The notes under the pieces: generated by a model
Told to the model about the DNA's origin: nothing
Seen by the model: the letters and a program-made list of their open reading frames with translations, nothing else
Databases searched by the model: none
In this document: in pieces, positions 9,267 to 15,988 of the stretch
Numbering within the stretch: the stretch's first letter is position 1
How the letters are laid out: the number at the start of each line of letters is the position of its first letter
Source of the DNA: a virus
Direction: 5' to 3' (one strand)
Length of the DNA: 22,714 nucleotides
Virus record (IMG/VR): IMGVR_UViG_3300037584_000122
Location: 1-22,714 of that record
Translations under genes and position numbers: made by a program

Positions 9267-12245
9267 ATGTCTGGCGTATTCGGTAATTCTTGGTTTCTAC
9301 CATCAATATCTTTTTTTAGTCACACCCTTGACCAGTCTTTGCGAGTCAACCAAGCTGATGACCCAATGCTTGTCCACACCCATTCTGCAAGCGCAGATGA
9401 CGAAGGGACTTGCACCATCTCTCTTTGGGTCAAGCGTGGAAAATTAGGCTCAAACACAAGATTTATGGGTGTGAGCAAAGGCACAAATTACGGATATTTT
9501 GGTTTTGAAAGCAATGACAAACTTGCATTTTTTGCTGGTAATCCAATCGTAATAAATTTCGTAACAAATAGATTTTTTCGTGATGCCTCTGCTTATTATC
9601 ATATAGTTGTCGCCTTAGACATTGATAACAGCACAAGCACAGAACGCTTCAAATTGTATGTCAACGGTGTTCAAGAAACAAGTTTTGCCACCGCCACATA
9701 CCCAACTAGCACGAATGCTTATTGGAATGAACCAAGCGCAAAACATTCTGTTGGGTGTGGATTGAATAGTGCTGGCGACCATTTTCAAGAGTTTGATGGA
9801 TACATTGCTGAAGTTAATTTTATTGATGGGGTAGTCTTAGATCCAACATCTTTTGGCGAAACATCTGAGGGTGTGTGGATACCAAAAAAATACACAGGTG
9901 CTTATGGGGCTGAAGGATTCCACCTAACTTTCAAAGGGACGGGAACGGCCACCACATCCGCAGGAACTACAGCCCAGAATAACATTGGTGATGATCAGTC
10001 TGGTAACGGAAACAATTTTGAGATTATAGGCAGTAGTATAGTCTCAAGCGATGTCGTGCCAGATAGCCCGACTAATAATTTTTGCACCCTTAACCCACTG
10101 ACTGCTGGCACATACCCAACACTTAAAGAAGGCAATTTAAGCATTGCAACTGCGTACAGTGCAGATTTGTGTGGGGTAACATCTACTTGGTATCCAACGA
10201 CTGGTAAATGGTATTGGGAAGTTCACGCAGAAGGGTCAACGCTAACTTATCCCTATCTTGGAATCACCGACCAGCGAATGACTATGACCAGTGCAACAAC
10301 TGGTAGTTATTATAGCGTTGCTTGGCTTAGAAATGGCGGTTCAGCGACTATGTCTGGCACTAGCACTTATATGGGTACAATTACCAATAACAATGTTGCA
10401 ACTTGGACAAACAATGACATTATTATGTTTGCGCTTGACGTTGACGCCAAAAAGCTATGGGTAGGGAAAAACGGAACTTGGGATGGCAGTGGTGATCCAG
10501 CCGCTGGAACTGGTGAAGATGCCTCTTGGACAGTTGACACTGGCGTTTCTCCATCTTGGATGGGGTATCAGAGTCAAGGCGTTAATTCTGTATTCAACTT
10601 TGGTCAGGATGGTACATTCGCTGGCAATCAAACCGCACAAGGCAACGCAGATGGTAATGGTGTGGGTAATTTTTATTACTCGCCGCCATCTGGTTTCTTG
10701 GCGATGGCGAACTCAAACCTAGACATCACAATCGGCCCTAGTCAAAACACTCAAGCCGATGATCATTTTGATATTCTTCTATGGACAGGCAACGGAACCT
10801 CCGCTGGTGATTCACAAGAAATAAACGGATTACAATTTCGTCCTGATTGGGTATGGACGAAAGGCAGGGGTGGCCCCGCTTCAAACCCAAATGCAGGTTT
10901 GCAATATCACGAATGGCATGATGCTGTGAGGGGTGCTGGGGTAAGGCTATTCAGCAATGCTACATCTGCTGAAAGTGACAAGCAGACAATAACAAGTTTT
11001 GACAATGATGGCTTTACTGTAGCGATGGGGACGGGAGGGCAGAGCGGAACGAATCAAAACCTTACCACTATGGTCGGTTGGTGTTGGAAGGCTGGCGGGG
11101 ACTCGCCTACAAAAACCTATAAAGTGAGGGTGGTGGCAACAGATCAGGGCAATAGATATCAATTTAGAAATTCAACGGATAGCGCAACATTTGATCAATC
11201 CCAAGTCACTTTGAATTTACAAGAAGGCGGAACATATACATTTGACGTTTCACATAGCACTGTCAATGGACACCCTATGAAATTCAGCACAACATCAAAT
11301 GGCTCTCATGGGGGTGGCACAACGTATTCTACTGGCGTTGTTTATACGCTAGATGGGGTCGCGGTTTCAGAAACAGATTATGTCAATAATTTTAACTCAG
11401 CCACATCCAGAACAGTAGCGATTACAGTGGCCGCATCTGCACCCACCTTGTATTATTTTTGCCATTATCATTCTGCTATGGGCGGTCAGATAAATACAAA
11501 CTCACTCTTTGGATCAACAAATTTTGATGGCACTTTGCTTTCAGTTGAGACAGTCAATGATACGGCTGGATTTAGCATGGTTTCATATTCTGGGACTTTA
11601 AGTAGTTCTGGAACAGCATCCTTTGGTCATGGTCTTGGTAAAAGGCCAAGTCTTGTAATCACGAAATCATTGAATAATGCTGATGTGGATTCTGGCAACT
11701 GGTTGATATGGCACGATAGTTTGACTTCAGACAACTACACGTTGCGCTTTGATACACTGGGAGAGTTAGACAAAGCTGGCAATGGCGATATGGCGTCTTT
11801 GTTTACAACCACAACATTTGGCACAAATTACACAGTAGGTTCAAACGTTACAGGCAACAATTATATTGCATATCTGTTTTCAGAAATTGAAGGTTTCAGT
11901 AAGTTTGGCAAGTTCAGGGGCAACTCAAGCGGTACAAATGGCGTATATGTATATTTAGGTTTTCGTCCCAGACTGGTAATAGGCAAGGTCATAACTCAAA
12001 CTGGAAGATGGTGGATATATGATTCTGCACGGTCGCCGCGAATGAATTATTCAATAGGAACTGGCGCGTATCTAACCGCGAACTCAGAAGCCAAAGAAGT
12101 AGGAGACAATGGAGTCAATGCTATTCAACTACTTAGCAACGGTTTCAAAATGAATACCACAAATGCTGAATGGAATGGAAGCAGTCATACCTATGTTTAT
12201 CTAGCATTTGCTGAAGTGCCGCAAAAATTTTCCAATGCCCGATAG
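9267..12245 (+). CDS. Large tail fibre or spike: LamG-like, SPRY-like and cupredoxin-like domain mosaic
   Basis: The product is 992 residues, the largest gene of the fibre region. Residues about 22-225 are LamG/concanavalin-A-like (CTISLWVKRGKLGS, YYHIVVALDID, FKLYVNGVQ, DGYIAEVNFIDG). About 265-475 is SPRY-like, starting at SPTNNFCTLNPL with GKWYWEVHAEG and LGI. A module of the form 'F..l.y.Gn....glgfrP..v..K' occurs three times (about 501-535, 769-800, 877-907). Between copies one and two lies a cupredoxin-like segment (616-750) with His669, Cys732, His735 and Met738 spaced as in type-1 copper sites. The lectin-like domains suggest glycan binding on the host surface. There is no catalytic triad or autoproteolytic endosialidase-type domain. 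AGG and GGG bases precede the ATG. A chaperone-like gene follows 9 bases downstream. Confidence 0.85.
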   Translation: MSGVFGNSWFLPSISFFSHTLDQSLRVNQADDPMLVHTHSASADDEGTCTISLWVKRGKLGSNTRFMGVSKGTNYGYFGFESNDKLAFFAGNPIVINFVTNRFFRDASAYYHIVVALDIDNSTSTERFKLYVNGVQETSFATATYPTSTNAYWNEPSAKHSVGCGLNSAGDHFQEFDGYIAEVNFIDGVVLDPTSFGETSEGVWIPKKYTGAYGAEGFHLTFKGTGTATTSAGTTAQNNIGDDQSGNGNNFEIIGSSIVSSDVVPDSPTNNFCTLNPLTAGTYPTLKEGNLSIATAYSADLCGVTSTWYPTTGKWYWEVHAEGSTLTYPYLGITDQRMTMTSATTGSYYSVAWLRNGGSATMSGTSTYMGTITNNNVATWTNNDIIMFALDVDAKKLWVGKNGTWDGSGDPAAGTGEDASWTVDTGVSPSWMGYQSQGVNSVFNFGQDGTFAGNQTAQGNADGNGVGNFYYSPPSGFLAMANSNLDITIGPSQNTQADDHFDILLWTGNGTSAGDSQEINGLQFRPDWVWTKGRGGPASNPNAGLQYHEWHDAVRGAGVRLFSNATSAESDKQTITSFDNDGFTVAMGTGGQSGTNQNLTTMVGWCWKAGGDSPTKTYKVRVVATDQGNRYQFRNSTDSATFDQSQVTLNLQEGGTYTFDVSHSTVNGHPMKFSTTSNGSHGGGTTYSTGVVYTLDGVAVSETDYVNNFNSATSRTVAITVAASAPTLYYFCHYHSAMGGQINTNSLFGSTNFDGTLLSVETVNDTAGFSMVSYSGTLSSSGTASFGHGLGKRPSLVITKSLNNADVDSGNWLIWHDSLTSDNYTLRFDTLGELDKAGNGDMASLFTTTTFGTNYTVGSNVTGNNYIAYLFSEIEGFSKFGKFRGNSSGTNGVYVYLGFRPRLVIGKVITQTGRWWIYDSARSPRMNYSIGTGAYLTANSEAKEVGDNGVNAIQLLSNGFKMNTTNAEWNGSSHTYVYLAFAEVPQKFSNAR

Positions 12246-12254
12246 GAGATAGTG

Positions 12255-12821
12255 ATGTGGAAGTATAAAACAAAAACTCTAAAAGAGGGTATGGCGTGGG
12301 CGGATGATGAAGGTTATCAGCATCCAAAAAACTGGGCATCAGTTTGGGATGATGCAACAAAAAAATCTAGGGGACTAATATGGGTAGATGACCCCGCCCC
12401 TTATGATAACAGATTTTATTACGGCAGAGATAGTGACGGCAAGCTCATTGAAAAAAGCCTTGTTGATACACTTTGGGTTGATGATGATGGCAAAGCTGTT
12501 GTTGATCCATCTACAGGTAAGCAAGGCGTTACGGATGGCTTAAAAACAATGCAAATAAAAGAGGTGAAGCAAACCGCAAACGGATTACTTGCGCCTACAG
12601 ACTGGATGGTGGTGAGAGCGGCAGAAGATAGCTCAAAGTCGGTAGATTCAAAATATACAACTTACAGGGCGGCAGTCCGTACAGCTTGCGAGGCGATAGA
12701 GAAGAAAATAAATGATGCTAGTGATATGTCTGAGTTTATGGCATTATGGGATACGCCAATGAAAGATGGTGAGCCAACTGGCAACGCACCAATTAATGAT
12801 TGGCCTGATGTGGTGGAGTGA
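12255..12821 (+). CDS. Probable tail fibre assembly chaperone-like protein
   Basis: The product is 188 residues. The ATG at 12255 has AGGAG 6 bases ahead; a GTG one codon upstream is too close. The N-terminal half (1-75) is rich in Trp, Tyr and Asp (MAWADDEGYQHPKNW, RGLIWVDDPAPYDNRFYYG). The C-terminal half has LLAPTDWMVVRAAED (111-125), TYRAAVRTACEAIEKKI (about 136-152) and FMALWD, the layout of tail-fibre assembly and capping proteins, which end in 'TDW.v.R....YR..vR'. Its place directly behind the large fibre supports a role in folding or trimerising it. It could also be a minor virion protein retained on the fibre. Confidence 0.65.
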   Translation: MWKYKTKTLKEGMAWADDEGYQHPKNWASVWDDATKKSRGLIWVDDPAPYDNRFYYGRDSDGKLIEKSLVDTLWVDDDGKAVVDPSTGKQGVTDGLKTMQIKEVKQTANGLLAPTDWMVVRAAEDSSKSVDSKYTTYRAAVRTACEAIEKKINDASDMSEFMALWDTPMKDGEPTGNAPINDWPDVVE

Positions 12822-12824
12822 GGC

Positions 12825-13469
12825 ATGGCACTTTCGAAATTGAGGTCTGAGAGCCTAGATTTGACAGATAATTATGCGTTCACTGGCACTGTCACAGGCG
12901 CAGGCAGTAACAGCGGATTTAGATTTATTTCTAAAACAACAGTATCAACATCTAGTTCAATTCAAGATTTCACCAATTTATTTAACGCAGACTTTAACCA
13001 TTATAAATTAATATGGGATTTAGTGGGTGAGGATACTGGTGACTCTGACACATCACACTCATTTCAATTTTTGAAAGCCAGTGATGGGTCTGTTGATACT
13101 ACGGCTGATATTGATTTTATAAGTCACGGCTTTGATTCTGATAGTAGCACTGGAAGGAGTCAGGGAAGGCAAAACAAAGATTATTTTAATTTTCTTTACA
13201 ATACTGTTGAAGATACGAAACCATCTTATTATGAAATGTCAATTTATGCACCTTTCGCATCCGAATTTACGACTGTAAATGCGCTTATAGCCTATATGGT
13301 CAACGCAAATACAAATGTTGTGTCAACAAATGGCGCGGCAGTTAGGGCTAACACAACAAGCTATTCTGGACTTAGGCTTGTTGTCACATCTGGTAATTCA
13401 ACATCTTCAGCAGATTCAGGTAGTTCTGCTACAGGCACTTTATTGCTTTACGGATTTGCAGAAAGTTGA
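12825..13469 (+). CDS. Tail fibre / receptor-binding protein (short type)
   Basis: The product is 214 residues. MALSKLRSESLDLTDNYAF followed by TGTVTGAGSN is a typical N-terminal joint of marine phage fibres. Residues about 32-214 form a beta-rich head with FNHYKLIWDLVG, FQFLKASDG, YEMSIYAPF, LIAYMVNA, LRLVVTSG and a final LLLYGFAES, the pattern of a trimeric binding tip. Its head is not obviously related to the tips of the next three fibres. GGAG lies 6 bases before the ATG and the previous stop is 3 bases upstream. Confidence 0.7.
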   Translation: MALSKLRSESLDLTDNYAFTGTVTGAGSNSGFRFISKTTVSTSSSIQDFTNLFNADFNHYKLIWDLVGEDTGDSDTSHSFQFLKASDGSVDTTADIDFISHGFDSDSSTGRSQGRQNKDYFNFLYNTVEDTKPSYYEMSIYAPFASEFTTVNALIAYMVNANTNVVSTNGAAVRANTTSYSGLRLVVTSGNSTSSADSGSSATGTLLLYGFAES

Positions 13470-13476
13470 GGTCAAC

Positions 13477-14004
13477 ATGAGTAGAGCAAGAGTATTAGCG
13501 GATATGGGTGCAAGTGGCTCAACCAAGATTACACGCATTGAAATACCGCCAAAGGCTTTGGCAAACGATGGAACTATTCCAAGAGACAACACACTGCCTT
13601 TAATTACTGAAGGCGCACAGGCTTTCCAACACGATTTTACGCCAACCAAAACAACCTCAACTATTATCGTAGAGGTTTATCTTGTGTTAGGAGAAGTTGC
13701 TAACGTAGGAAATTCATATATGGCGGCACTATTTATTAATGACACCTGTGTAAACGTACGCGCAATGACAGGTATGTCAAATGATGGTAACGGAGATAAT
13801 GGTGTGTATTACATGAGTGCCGAAGTAAATAACACCGATGGCAGTGCTATTGATATTGAGATACGAGCAGACGGTGTTACAAGTTTACACGTTAATCCTC
13901 AATTACTTTCAACAGGTAACTCACAAAACTTCACGGCTGGCTCGTCATCCTTTGGAGGGGCAACCAGTACAAACTGCACACACATGATGATTGCGGAGAT
14001 TTAA
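13477..14004 (+). CDS. Tail fibre tip protein (MSRARVLADM type)
   Basis: The product is 175 residues. The open frame extends back to 13315 inside the previous gene, but the ATG at 13477 is preceded by GAGGT (13468-13472) and gives the N terminus MSRARVLADMGASGS, which matches MTQARTLADFGGGSG of the 15422 gene. After a short N-terminal joint the C-terminal domain contains IPRDNTLPLITEGAQAF (34-50) and FTPTKTTSTIIVEV (54-67), closely paralleled in the next fibre. It probably forms a trimeric receptor-binding tip. The stop overlaps the next ATG by one base. Confidence 0.7.
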   Translation: MSRARVLADMGASGSTKITRIEIPPKALANDGTIPRDNTLPLITEGAQAFQHDFTPTKTTSTIIVEVYLVLGEVANVGNSYMAALFINDTCVNVRAMTGMSNDGNGDNGVYYMSAEVNNTDGSAIDIEIRADGVTSLHVNPQLLSTGNSQNFTAGSSSFGGATSTNCTHMMIAEI

Positions 14005-15083
14005 TGCCATACATAGGAAAATCACCTGAGTTCGGGGTCAGACAAAGATATTATTATACCCAATCAAGTGGTGGGGCTACATCTATATCTGGCTTAGATG
14101 ATAATGGCATCACGCTCAAATTTACTGATGGTAATTTTGTTGATGTATTTCTAAATGGCGTTTTGTTGGTTGATGGAGTTGATTATGGAACAAGCACCAC
14201 CAACACAATAAGCTCATTATCAGCATTAGCCAGCGGTGATGTCATTGAGGTTCTGGTTTATGATGTGTTCAACATTGCCAAAAACCAAGCAGAAGTCACA
14301 CGCACAAGATATTATAAGACCGCTTCTGGTAGTGAGACATCTATCAGCGGCAATGATGATAGTGGTGTGGCTATTGAGTTTCCCGCTGGCGCACAGCTAG
14401 ATGTCAGTTTGAATGGCGTATCACTTGTGGCGGGTTCAGATTACAACACAAGCACAGCAAACACAATTAGTGGTCTATCTGCACTCGCCGCTGGCAATGT
14501 GATTGAAATAGTCAAATATGAAAAGTTTGTTGTTAGTGATACAGTTAGCAAAGCCGCTGGGGGTACGTTTGGAGGAGCAATCGCCGCCACATCATTTAGC
14601 GGGGATGGTTCTGCACTTACAAACTTACCCGCTGGTGGCAAATTATTAAAGTTTGCATCTGATCAAAGCGCAAACACAAGCAATTCTGCAACAATACCAC
14701 AGGACAACACTACCCCCACAATTTCTGAAGGCACGGAAGTATTTAGCATAGCGTTTACACCAACAGCGGCATCAAGCACTTTGTTGATACAGGCGGCGTT
14801 CCAACTCTCAGCAGGCTCTAACGGTCAATATTTGATGTGGACACTGTTTGAAGATAGCACTTGTTTAGGTGCTTGGTCTGGGGCATCGCCCTACAGTAAC
14901 AACGGCAACGTAGTTTCATTTAATGTTGTAAGAGCCGCATCATCAACTTCTGCTCGTACTTATAGTGTCCGTGCTGGATGTTCAAATGGGACAGGTGGAA
15001 CCGTCTACATTGGTAATGTTTTTAGTAATAACTATGGTGGACTAAACGCTAACTTTATGACTATCCAAGAGATAGGAGCATAA
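14004..15083 (+). CDS. Tail fibre protein with duplicated beta domain and receptor-binding-like tip
   Basis: The product is 359 residues. MPYIGK opens the protein as in the 8590 fibre. Residues 13-92 and 100-178 are two copies of one beta domain (VDVFLNGVLLVDGVDYGTST and LDVSLNGVSLVAGSDYNTST). Residues about 185-211 are a fibre joint (GTFGGAIAATSFSGDGSALTN). The C-terminal domain (about 214-359) has IPQDNTTPTISEGTEVF (231-247) and FTPTAASSTLLIQA (251-264), so it is homologous to the tip of the preceding gene. It ends NFMTIQEIGA. A tail-fibre chaperone gene follows 2 bases after its stop, an arrangement typical of a receptor-binding fibre. Confidence 0.8.
   Translation: MPYIGKSPEFGVRQRYYYTQSSGGATSISGLDDNGITLKFTDGNFVDVFLNGVLLVDGVDYGTSTTNTISSLSALASGDVIEVLVYDVFNIAKNQAEVTRTRYYKTASGSETSISGNDDSGVAIEFPAGAQLDVSLNGVSLVAGSDYNTSTANTISGLSALAAGNVIEIVKYEKFVVSDTVSKAAGGTFGGAIAATSFSGDGSALTNLPAGGKLLKFASDQSANTSNSATIPQDNTTPTISEGTEVFSIAFTPTAASSTLLIQAAFQLSAGSNGQYLMWTLFEDSTCLGAWSGASPYSNNGNVVSFNVVRAASSTSARTYSVRAGCSNGTGGTVYIGNVFSNNYGGLNANFMTIQEIGA
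14040..14279 (+). repeat. Tandem protein-level repeat, copy 1 (fibre beta domain)
   Basis: This codes residues 13-92 of the fibre. It aligns without gaps to copy 2 at an offset of 87 residues: SISGLDDNGITLKF versus SISGNDDSGVAIEF, and TNTISSLSALASGDVIEV versus ANTISGLSALAAGNVIEI. The DNA copies have diverged, so the duplication is old. Confidence 0.8.
14301..14537 (+). repeat. Tandem protein-level repeat, copy 2 (fibre beta domain)
   Basis: This codes residues 100-178, the second copy of the domain described for 14040-14279. A single more distant copy is present in the fibre gene at 8590-9258 (VEVFVNNVRQEPNVAYTVSG). Confidence 0.8.
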
Positions 15084-15085
15084 AA

Positions 15086-15412
15086 ATGCAACATGAAGCA
15101 ATCAGAGCATTATATAATAATGTTACTTTAATTTCAGGCTATGGCGCAGAAGCAGTCGCTATGGATAAAGACAACAAAGTAGTTTCTTGGGATGCATCTG
15201 CTGTTGCAACAAAACAGGCGGAGCTAGAAAAAGCCGCTGACCTTAATAGATTAAGATTAGAACGTACAAGATTATTATCTGAGACAGATTGGTGGGACGC
15301 ATCTGATACGCCTGAAATGACTGATGCACAGAAAAAGTATCGACAAGACTTGCGTGATATAACTAAAACATATTCATCGTTAGATGATGTTAAATGGCCG
15401 ACAAAGCCGTAG
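15086..15412 (+). CDS. Tail fibre assembly chaperone (Phage_tail_APC-like)
   Basis: The product is 108 residues. MQHEAIRALYNNVTLIS is a short N-terminal segment. A charged helix follows (about 39-63), then the family signature: RLLSETDWWDASDTPEM (62-78, with TDWW at 67-70), KYRQDLRDITK (84-94) and a C-terminal VKWPTKP (102-108). Such proteins bind the C-terminal part of phage tail fibres to help folding or trimerisation. GGAG lies 7 bases before the ATG, inside the end of the previous fibre gene. Flanked on both sides by fibre genes with related tips, it could serve all of them. Confidence 0.75.
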   Translation: MQHEAIRALYNNVTLISGYGAEAVAMDKDNKVVSWDASAVATKQAELEKAADLNRLRLERTRLLSETDWWDASDTPEMTDAQKKYRQDLRDITKTYSSLDDVKWPTKP

Positions 15413-15421
15413 GGGTAAGGG

Positions 15422-15988
15422 ATGACACAGGCGAGAACATTAGCTGATTTTGGGGGCGGCAGTGGCACTGGGAAGGTTTTGCAAGTTGTTGTGCATCAAG
15501 AGACTGCCGCGCCACAACCGCCAGTTACCTTTGGAGCTTCAACAGCAAATCAGTATCTTTTGCTTTCTGCCGCCAATGCAAGTGATAGCACTGCAAAAAT
15601 GGAAGTCACAATAACTCCTACTTCTGCAACTTCTAAAATATTAATTCATGCAATTGTTCATTTTGAACCTAGCGTAGATTCACATGATACAATTTGGACA
15701 TTGTATCGAAATGGAAGCACAAGACTTGGACAACCAGACCAATCAAACAGGCGTGGTGGAATAGCACAGACCGTCACATCATTAGATGCCAACAACGATA
15801 GCACTATAGATATGGCCAATATTTTATTTGAAGATAGCCCAAACACTACATCAGCAACAACCTATACAATGGCTTATAATAATTCTAGTGCAATGACTGT
15901 TTATCTTAATAGAGTTCTTGGTAGTAGTGACTCATCAGGTGCAGAGCGTTTGCAAAGCATAATCATGGCGCAAGAAATAGCGGTGTAA
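15422..15988 (+). CDS. Tail fibre tip protein (MTQARTLADF type)
   Basis: The product is 188 residues. MTQARTLADFGGGSGTGKVL is the same N-terminal module as in the 13477 gene. The C-terminal domain contains ITPTSATSKILIHA (64-77), equivalent to the FTPT strands of the two related fibres, then TIWTLYRNGSTRLG, a variable Asn/Asp/Ser-rich stretch, TYTMAYNNSSAMTVYLNRV and a terminal IIMAQEIAV. It is likely a third version of the receptor-binding tip. AAGGG precedes the ATG. It is the last gene of the fibre block; the connector gene begins 10 bases later. Confidence 0.7.
   Translation: MTQARTLADFGGGSGTGKVLQVVVHQETAAPQPPVTFGASTANQYLLLSAANASDSTAKMEVTITPTSATSKILIHAIVHFEPSVDSHDTIWTLYRNGSTRLGQPDQSNRRGGIAQTVTSLDANNDSTIDMANILFEDSPNTTSATTYTMAYNNSSAMTVYLNRVLGSSDSSGAERLQSIIMAQEIAV

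Follow-up and report, generated by a model that had tools for sequence, protein, structure and literature searches.

Does a phage tail fibre carry a genuine cupredoxin with a complete set of type-1 copper ligands, and what would such a domain do on a virion? Known type-1 copper domains carry electrons or form parts of enzymes, and the proteins that contain them are generally exported or located in membranes. The window, which is the whole stretch of DNA analysed here, comprises a 22,714-base virus record with siphovirus-like morphogenesis genes, namely those for a major capsid protein, a lambda-J-like central tail protein, a tape measure and a lysozyme-like product. Its large fibre is colinear with a virion structural protein of Roseobacter phage CRP-811. 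The fibre gene is followed by a run of small fibre-like genes (12252-15988) for a probable tail-fibre assembly protein and for several products without known function. The first-pass annotation had placed in this fibre a cupredoxin-like segment that has every type-1 copper ligand. Re-reading of the ORF returns the translation of the segment 11112-11516 and the positions of His669, Cys732, His735 and Met738 as claimed (Table 1), and the assignment itself is supported by the model fold, by homology and by ligand conservation, in the absence of any copper data.

Table 1 Positions of the fibre domains, the predicted copper ligands and the adjacent assembly gene within the window.
Feature	Position	Strand	Evidence
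Tail fibre / virion structural protein, 992 aa	9267..12245	+	phrog_19943 'virion structural protein' E 1e-156; phrog_24898 'tail fiber protein'
Laminin_G_3 / concanavalin A-like lectin domain, N-terminal, residues 39-188	9381..9830	+	Pfam PF13385, 46.1 bits, cut-off 27.6
SPRY-like segment, weak, under cut-off	10206..10481	+	PF00622 E 0.002, 18.7 bits, cut-off 26.3
DUF7483 first part (profile 3-107), residues 498-612, first repeat unit of the receptor-side region	10758..11102	+	PF24299 E 1.6e-23
Cupredoxin domain, residues 616-750, between DUF7483 profile positions 107 and 108	11112..11516	+	AlphaFold2 pLDDT 92.7; cupredoxins are the top PDB matches; site empty in relatives
His669, first predicted copper ligand (GHPMKFS)	11271-11273	+	Invariant in the 67- and 16-sequence alignments
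Ligand loop CHYHSAM (C-x2-H-x2-M): Cys732 11460-11462, His735 11469-11471, Met738 11478-11480	11460..11480	+	Invariant in the 67- and 16-sequence alignments
DUF7483 second part (profile 108-330), residues about 749-985	11511..12221	+	PF24299 E 6.5e-57
Probable tail-fibre assembly protein, directly downstream of the fibre	12252..12821	+	phrog_4912 'tail fiber assembly' E 7e-5, C-terminal part only

Predicted fold and placement of the domain

The AlphaFold2 model of the domain, built with 67 relatives from the fetched loci, reaches a pLDDT of 92.7 and a pTM of 0.88. Strand 116–120 of the model ends at the Cys ligand (model Cys120, which corresponds to Cys732), the loop that follows holds the His and the Met, and the last strand extends from residue 128 to residue 133. 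This arrangement is the cupredoxin order, and the His...Cys-His-Met succession of type-1 copper proteins is met in both sequence and model. Nearly all of the top PDB matches retrieved with the domain model by VIA-align are cupredoxins, with Z 8.7–9.6 over about 104–120 residues. The best of them is the N-terminal domain of the three-domain nitrite reductase of Hyphomicrobium denitrificans (2dv6; Z 9.6, 106 residues, 2.9 Å), and small laccases, factor VIII and rusticyanin (Z 8.9) follow. The Hyphomicrobium nitrite reductase is also the best PDB match in Foldseek (E 2.9e-4). Its N-terminal domain holds type-1 copper. The AlphaFold2 model and its top PDB matches satisfy the Greek-key β-sandwich of 7–8 strands expected of a cupredoxin, and the fold anticipated in the first-pass annotation was thus obtained both by structure prediction and by fold search. 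A second model, which covers 498 residues of the fibre end (pLDDT 89.4, pTM 0.91), again matches cupredoxins over residues 118–267, and a fold search with this model gave no clear match for the DUF7483 units outside the cupredoxin part. The fold of the domain model is also matched by small 'beta-sandwich proteins' of pithovirus- and marseillevirus-like genomes (BFVD A0A481Z6J5, A0A481Z7Q7 and A0A481YY19).

The alignment of the fibre with its counterparts in CRP-811, Methylophilales phage MEP301 and Pelagibacter phage HTVC121P displays an empty cupredoxin site in all three, where the first DUF7483 unit runs directly into the second. Because the domain sits cleanly between DUF7483 repeat units and is missing there in the three related phages, the cupredoxin segment, from about Asp612 to Ser750, is on the evidence of these alignments a complete, optional and removable cassette. 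DUF7483 itself is suggested by its sequence to be a series of similar units, with the cupredoxin placed between the first and the second. Nesting of the cupredoxin inside one single DUF7483 domain was considered and dropped in view of the empty-site alignment and of a repeated GF-P-W-K pattern.

Ligand set and relation to blue copper proteins

The C-x2-H-x2-M motif occurs a single time across all six frames of the window. The motif is not a chance occurrence, because its residues belong to a family of 67 sequences in which no columns other than H, P, L, C, H, M and G are invariant. A 16-sequence alignment that extends down to 25% identity retains eight invariant columns, four of them ligands. 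The complete ligand set (HCHM) is present in 243 of 258 distinct domains. After clustering at 60%, it is found in 20 of the 26 representatives, while one displays HCHQ, one displays HCH with a truncated end and four are without the site. The first His and the Cys are retained or lost jointly in all 26 representatives (Fisher p 7e-5, or 4e-4 if two related PSS2-like rows count once), although shared ancestry makes both p-values optimistic. The ligand conservation on which the first-pass annotation had made its proposal depend thus extends to distant homologues, with His669 and Cys732 kept or lost as a unit. HCHQ is displayed by CPXG_00120 of cyanophage P-RSM6 (L087:4588-12207), in which Gln replaces the Met ligand. 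Gln is the axial ligand of stellacyanin-type sites, and this replacement therefore fits a real metal site.

Blue copper proteins usually have Asn after the first His, whereas this residue is Pro in the phage domain. When the phage loop is aligned with that of amicyanin, the C-x2-H-x2-M spacing is the same. The first-pass annotation had instead likened the loop to the CTPHYAMG of pseudoazurin, a comparison that does not hold, since pseudoazurin-type sequences carry CTPHxxMGM with the Met at C+8, i.e. C-x2-H-x4-M, a spacing that the phage loop fails. A crystal structure with Cu(II) exists for an azurin that bears CTPHPFM in place of its own loop (PDB 2fta, title).

The sequence relation to known cupredoxins is not apparent from direct comparison. 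Searches with the window domain and its family against Pfam, NCBIfam and PDB sequences returned nothing significant, and the window domain gave no match to Copper-bind (PF00127) at its cut-off of 21.2 bits. Only 8 of the 67 close relatives match Copper-bind, the best with E 0.014. When the 67-sequence family is compared with a small pseudoazurin/plastocyanin set, the hhalign probability is 3–11%, which is weak and was not used as proof. A bridging alignment, A7, was assembled from gp9-type C-terminal domains and from domains of PSS2-like phage, MED4-213, P-RSM6 and S-SCSM2R. The window family matches A7 with an hhalign probability of 99.1% (E 1e-18), with the His-Pro pair and the C-x2-H-x2-M loop in register. 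The A7 profile, in turn, retrieves plastocyanin (E 1.5e-6) and amicyanin (5.6e-6 for a variant, 3.6e-5 for 1aac) from PDB sequences, and nearly all of the 60 PDB matches listed are type-1 copper proteins. The first His is in register in the alignment with plastocyanin and off by two residues in that with amicyanin. One A7 member, a distant phage relative from locus L222, lies exactly at the Copper-bind cut-off of 21.2 bits. A7 includes L222 phage domains that are nearer to classical cupredoxins and that supply part of its signal. A statistically supported relation of the window domain to known cupredoxins may thus be claimed from these profiles, only via intermediate phage domains. Locus L222 contains, at about 822-1448 on the + strand and just upstream of a PSS2 gp080-like gene, two domains in tandem that each have the complete set of ligands (GHPLYIS...CEFHDAM and GHPFWIS...CQYHDSM); one of the two is the domain at the Copper-bind cut-off, and it bridges phage and cellular cupredoxins.

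A minority of relatives has lost the ligands. Cyanophage PSS2 gp080 (L085:5974-6312), like the proteins of loci L220-L231, is a stand-alone protein of 112 residues that consists of this domain only. In gp080 the ligand positions read DATM, i.e. the first His, the Cys and the second His are all lost. BFVD entry C7F4C6, which is probably PSS2 gp080 as judged from its 112-residue length and identity and not from its name, matches the domain model with an rmsd of 0.7 Å and a TM of 0.89. The first copy in P-HM2 gp7 is, by sequence, another ligand-less relative. Since some ligand-less relatives keep the fold, copper is dispensable for folding, and the entire family could be regarded as a copper-free β-sandwich block for spacing or weak adhesion, with Cys, His and Met kept for packing or for another metal such as zinc. 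Insertion and removal of the cassette and weak cross-matches of the domain family to Ig-like Pfam families are compatible with such a block. We nevertheless consider it unlikely, if still to be reckoned with, as the four exact ligands do not vary even among sequences down to 25% identity, although the rest of this virion domain does, and as the first His and the Cys are lost only jointly, which packing alone does not predict. The copper-free fold that the first-pass annotation had allowed for is therefore found in a minority of relatives, in which the ligands are lost and the fold is kept. The site, where present, is kept whole, and the fold can exist without it.

Occurrence in marine phages and host genomes

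The domain is common in marine phages, both in IMG/VR and in phage records, and the suspicion that it might be widespread proved correct. Narrow alignment A2 was used for the back-translated scans. IMG/VR yielded at least 597 relatives in one scan, and 142 and 438 with other queries, and in a phage collection of 50,697 records three queries matched 93, 345 and 358. Nearly all of the matching records are from phages of Synechococcus and Prochlorococcus; a few are from phages of Pelagibacter and Methylophilales. T4-like cyanophages display several scoring places per genome, among them gp9 at its C-terminal end, wedge proteins such as gp7, and giant structural proteins. In pelagiphages the domain lies near the end of the tail fibre. 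The assignment of the domain to the tail rests on annotation and protein families.

A species genome collection contributed 25 loci, mostly from SAR11 single-cell genomes with the pelagiphage fibre architecture, and a plasmid search found no copy of the domain. Long Pelagibacteraceae contigs bear the cupredoxin fibre of pelagiphage type in loci L181-L194 and L196, which come mostly from single-cell genomes of SAR11. These contigs may represent integrated prophages; an integrase is encoded by the related phage HTVC028P.

Other arrangements of the domain are observed in individual cyanophages. CPMG_00018 of Prochlorococcus phage MED4-213 (L209:3560-8231) contains, within one ORF, a cupredoxin directly ahead of a catalytic region that looks subtilisin-like (S8), and a second cupredoxin-like domain further on. 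Synechococcus phage S-SCSM2R also has an S8 peptidase gene beside a cupredoxin domain. Its protein XQU50115.1 (PQ898602.1, L207:5794-6300) is annotated as PetE, displays a fibre-like N-terminus without a clear Copper-bind score and adjoins FhaB-like and S8 peptidase structural genes. This 'PetE' is probably a virion cupredoxin and not a photosynthesis gene.

Possible roles and comparison with known systems

The explanation that we favour, with good though not full confidence, is a genuine cupredoxin from the branch of plastocyanin and amicyanin, taken over by marine tailed phages as a transferable module of tail-fibre and baseplate proteins, to act as a copper-loading knob for display or adhesion. 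Its fold, its homology, the coordinated conservation of the His/Cys/His/Met set, the amicyanin-spaced loop and the cassette behaviour are computed results. Binding of copper by the site on the virion is inferred, and convergence of the ligands on one metal is predicted from their order and conservation, with no measured distances. Free copper is scarce in both the bacterial cytoplasm and seawater, which counts against the involvement of copper. The fibre would be made copper-free in the cytoplasm and would acquire copper extracellularly or from the host once lysed, the loading being most likely after release because cytoplasmic copper is tightly held. A filled site would lock the ligand loop at one end of the β-sandwich, leaving the module as a stabilised, rigid and surface-exposed knob beside the receptor-side repeats of DUF7483, comparable to the Ig-like domains of phages. 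The latter are said by Fraser and colleagues to be accessory domains that form optional β-sandwich cassettes on structural proteins of unrelated phages.

The location of the domain in the receptor-side part of the fibre, beside DUF7483 and lectin-like domains, would also suit a metal bait, whereby a host receptor for copper or metal uptake in the outer membrane would bind the copper-loaded domain as a mimic of a copper protein or copper chelate, much as has been suggested for iron in phage fibres (Ferrojan horse). Within the phage collection the domain is restricted to marine phages, and metal on fibres has a precedent in the iron-binding HxH sites of T4 gp37 and of the alterophage R22Y fibre, a transition metal having also been proposed for tail fibres of marine phages (PMC11705849). 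The iron in T4 gp37 is, however, structural within the trimer and no receptor is known. Moreover, not all carriers are expected to be first at the receptor, as gp9 connectors, wedge proteins similar to gp7 and further structural proteins have the domain as well. Its occurrence on the baseplate favours a broader use, in structure or adhesion, over that of a receptor bait, an attractive but unsupported idea which we regard as improbable.

A redox role is less plausible still. The type-1 site is a one-electron carrier in amicyanin and plastocyanin, members that the phage domain matches in loop spacing and sequence relation, and it could exchange electrons with periplasmic or surface carriers, or catalyse reactions of oxidants or quench them at the cell surface during infection. 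Against this, the domain is an optional structural cassette, no partner redox gene is seen in the tail module, the hosts include non-phototrophs (Pelagibacter, Methylophilales) and some relatives are without the site. Cyanophages carry true petE genes and one relative is annotated as PetE, but the capture of a host plastocyanin for photosynthesis, fused by accident, can practically be set aside, as the domain resides inside virion structural proteins, here a 992-residue fibre, and not in a stand-alone protein, occurs also in phages of non-photosynthetic hosts and, in the S-SCSM2R protein, follows a start like that of a phage fibre with S8 peptidase and FhaB genes alongside.

The favoured copper-loading knob may be extended to marine phages as a group, which would then carry copper on their tails as a virus-specific type-1 family, several per cyanophage genome, whose metal-dependent recognition knobs exploit host copper handling at the cell surface and constitute a particulate copper pool in seawater; this extension is speculative and we would not expect it to hold. 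In abundant ocean viruses the tails carry an entire family in which the predicted site is intact; no dedicated Pfam model exists for it, and its members are labelled 'hypothetical' or 'baseplate wedge'. Should copper be bound, the site would represent a new kind of virion metal cofactor, the part of metals in phage adsorption would become directly testable with culturable cyanophages and pelagiphages, and viruses would join the list of seawater copper carriers. Even without copper, the assignment explains a domain present in hundreds of phage genomes, and it gives warning that some phage 'PetE' calls may be structural proteins and not photosynthesis genes.

No description of a cupredoxin on a phage virion, baseplate or tail fibre was found in open full text, subscription papers and UniProt/InterPro superfamily annotation being outside the scope of the search. 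The first-pass suggestion that the domain may be undescribed thus stands for the open papers searched, the nearest of which concerns viral NirK. A generic 'cupredoxin' label at the superfamily level may already be attached to some cyanophage proteins in UniProt/InterPro. The novelty lies in the place, the tails of marine phages, as the fold and the site are already known.

The phage domain shares with amicyanin (1aac) and plastocyanin (2plt), both of Pfam PF00127, the common cupredoxin sandwich and the ligand order His...Cys-His-Met. With amicyanin the C-x2-H-x2-M spacing, followed by x-G, is identical, a likeness of spacing only. In contrast, amicyanin and plastocyanin are small exported electron carriers, whereas the phage domain is part of a virion fibre and displays His-Pro in place of His-Asn. 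Similarly to the phage case, the nitrite reductase of H. denitrificans (2dv6) has a cupredoxin fused to a larger protein, but there it is a domain of a periplasmic enzyme, with 17% identity, and not of a virion protein. Phage Ig-like domains belong to a different superfamily and are without the conserved metal-ligand set of the phage cupredoxin. Finally, the fibres of T4 gp37 and R22Y bind octahedral iron through HxH pairs of the trimer, while the phage cupredoxin is predicted to form a type-1 copper-like site within a single chain and in a domain of its own.
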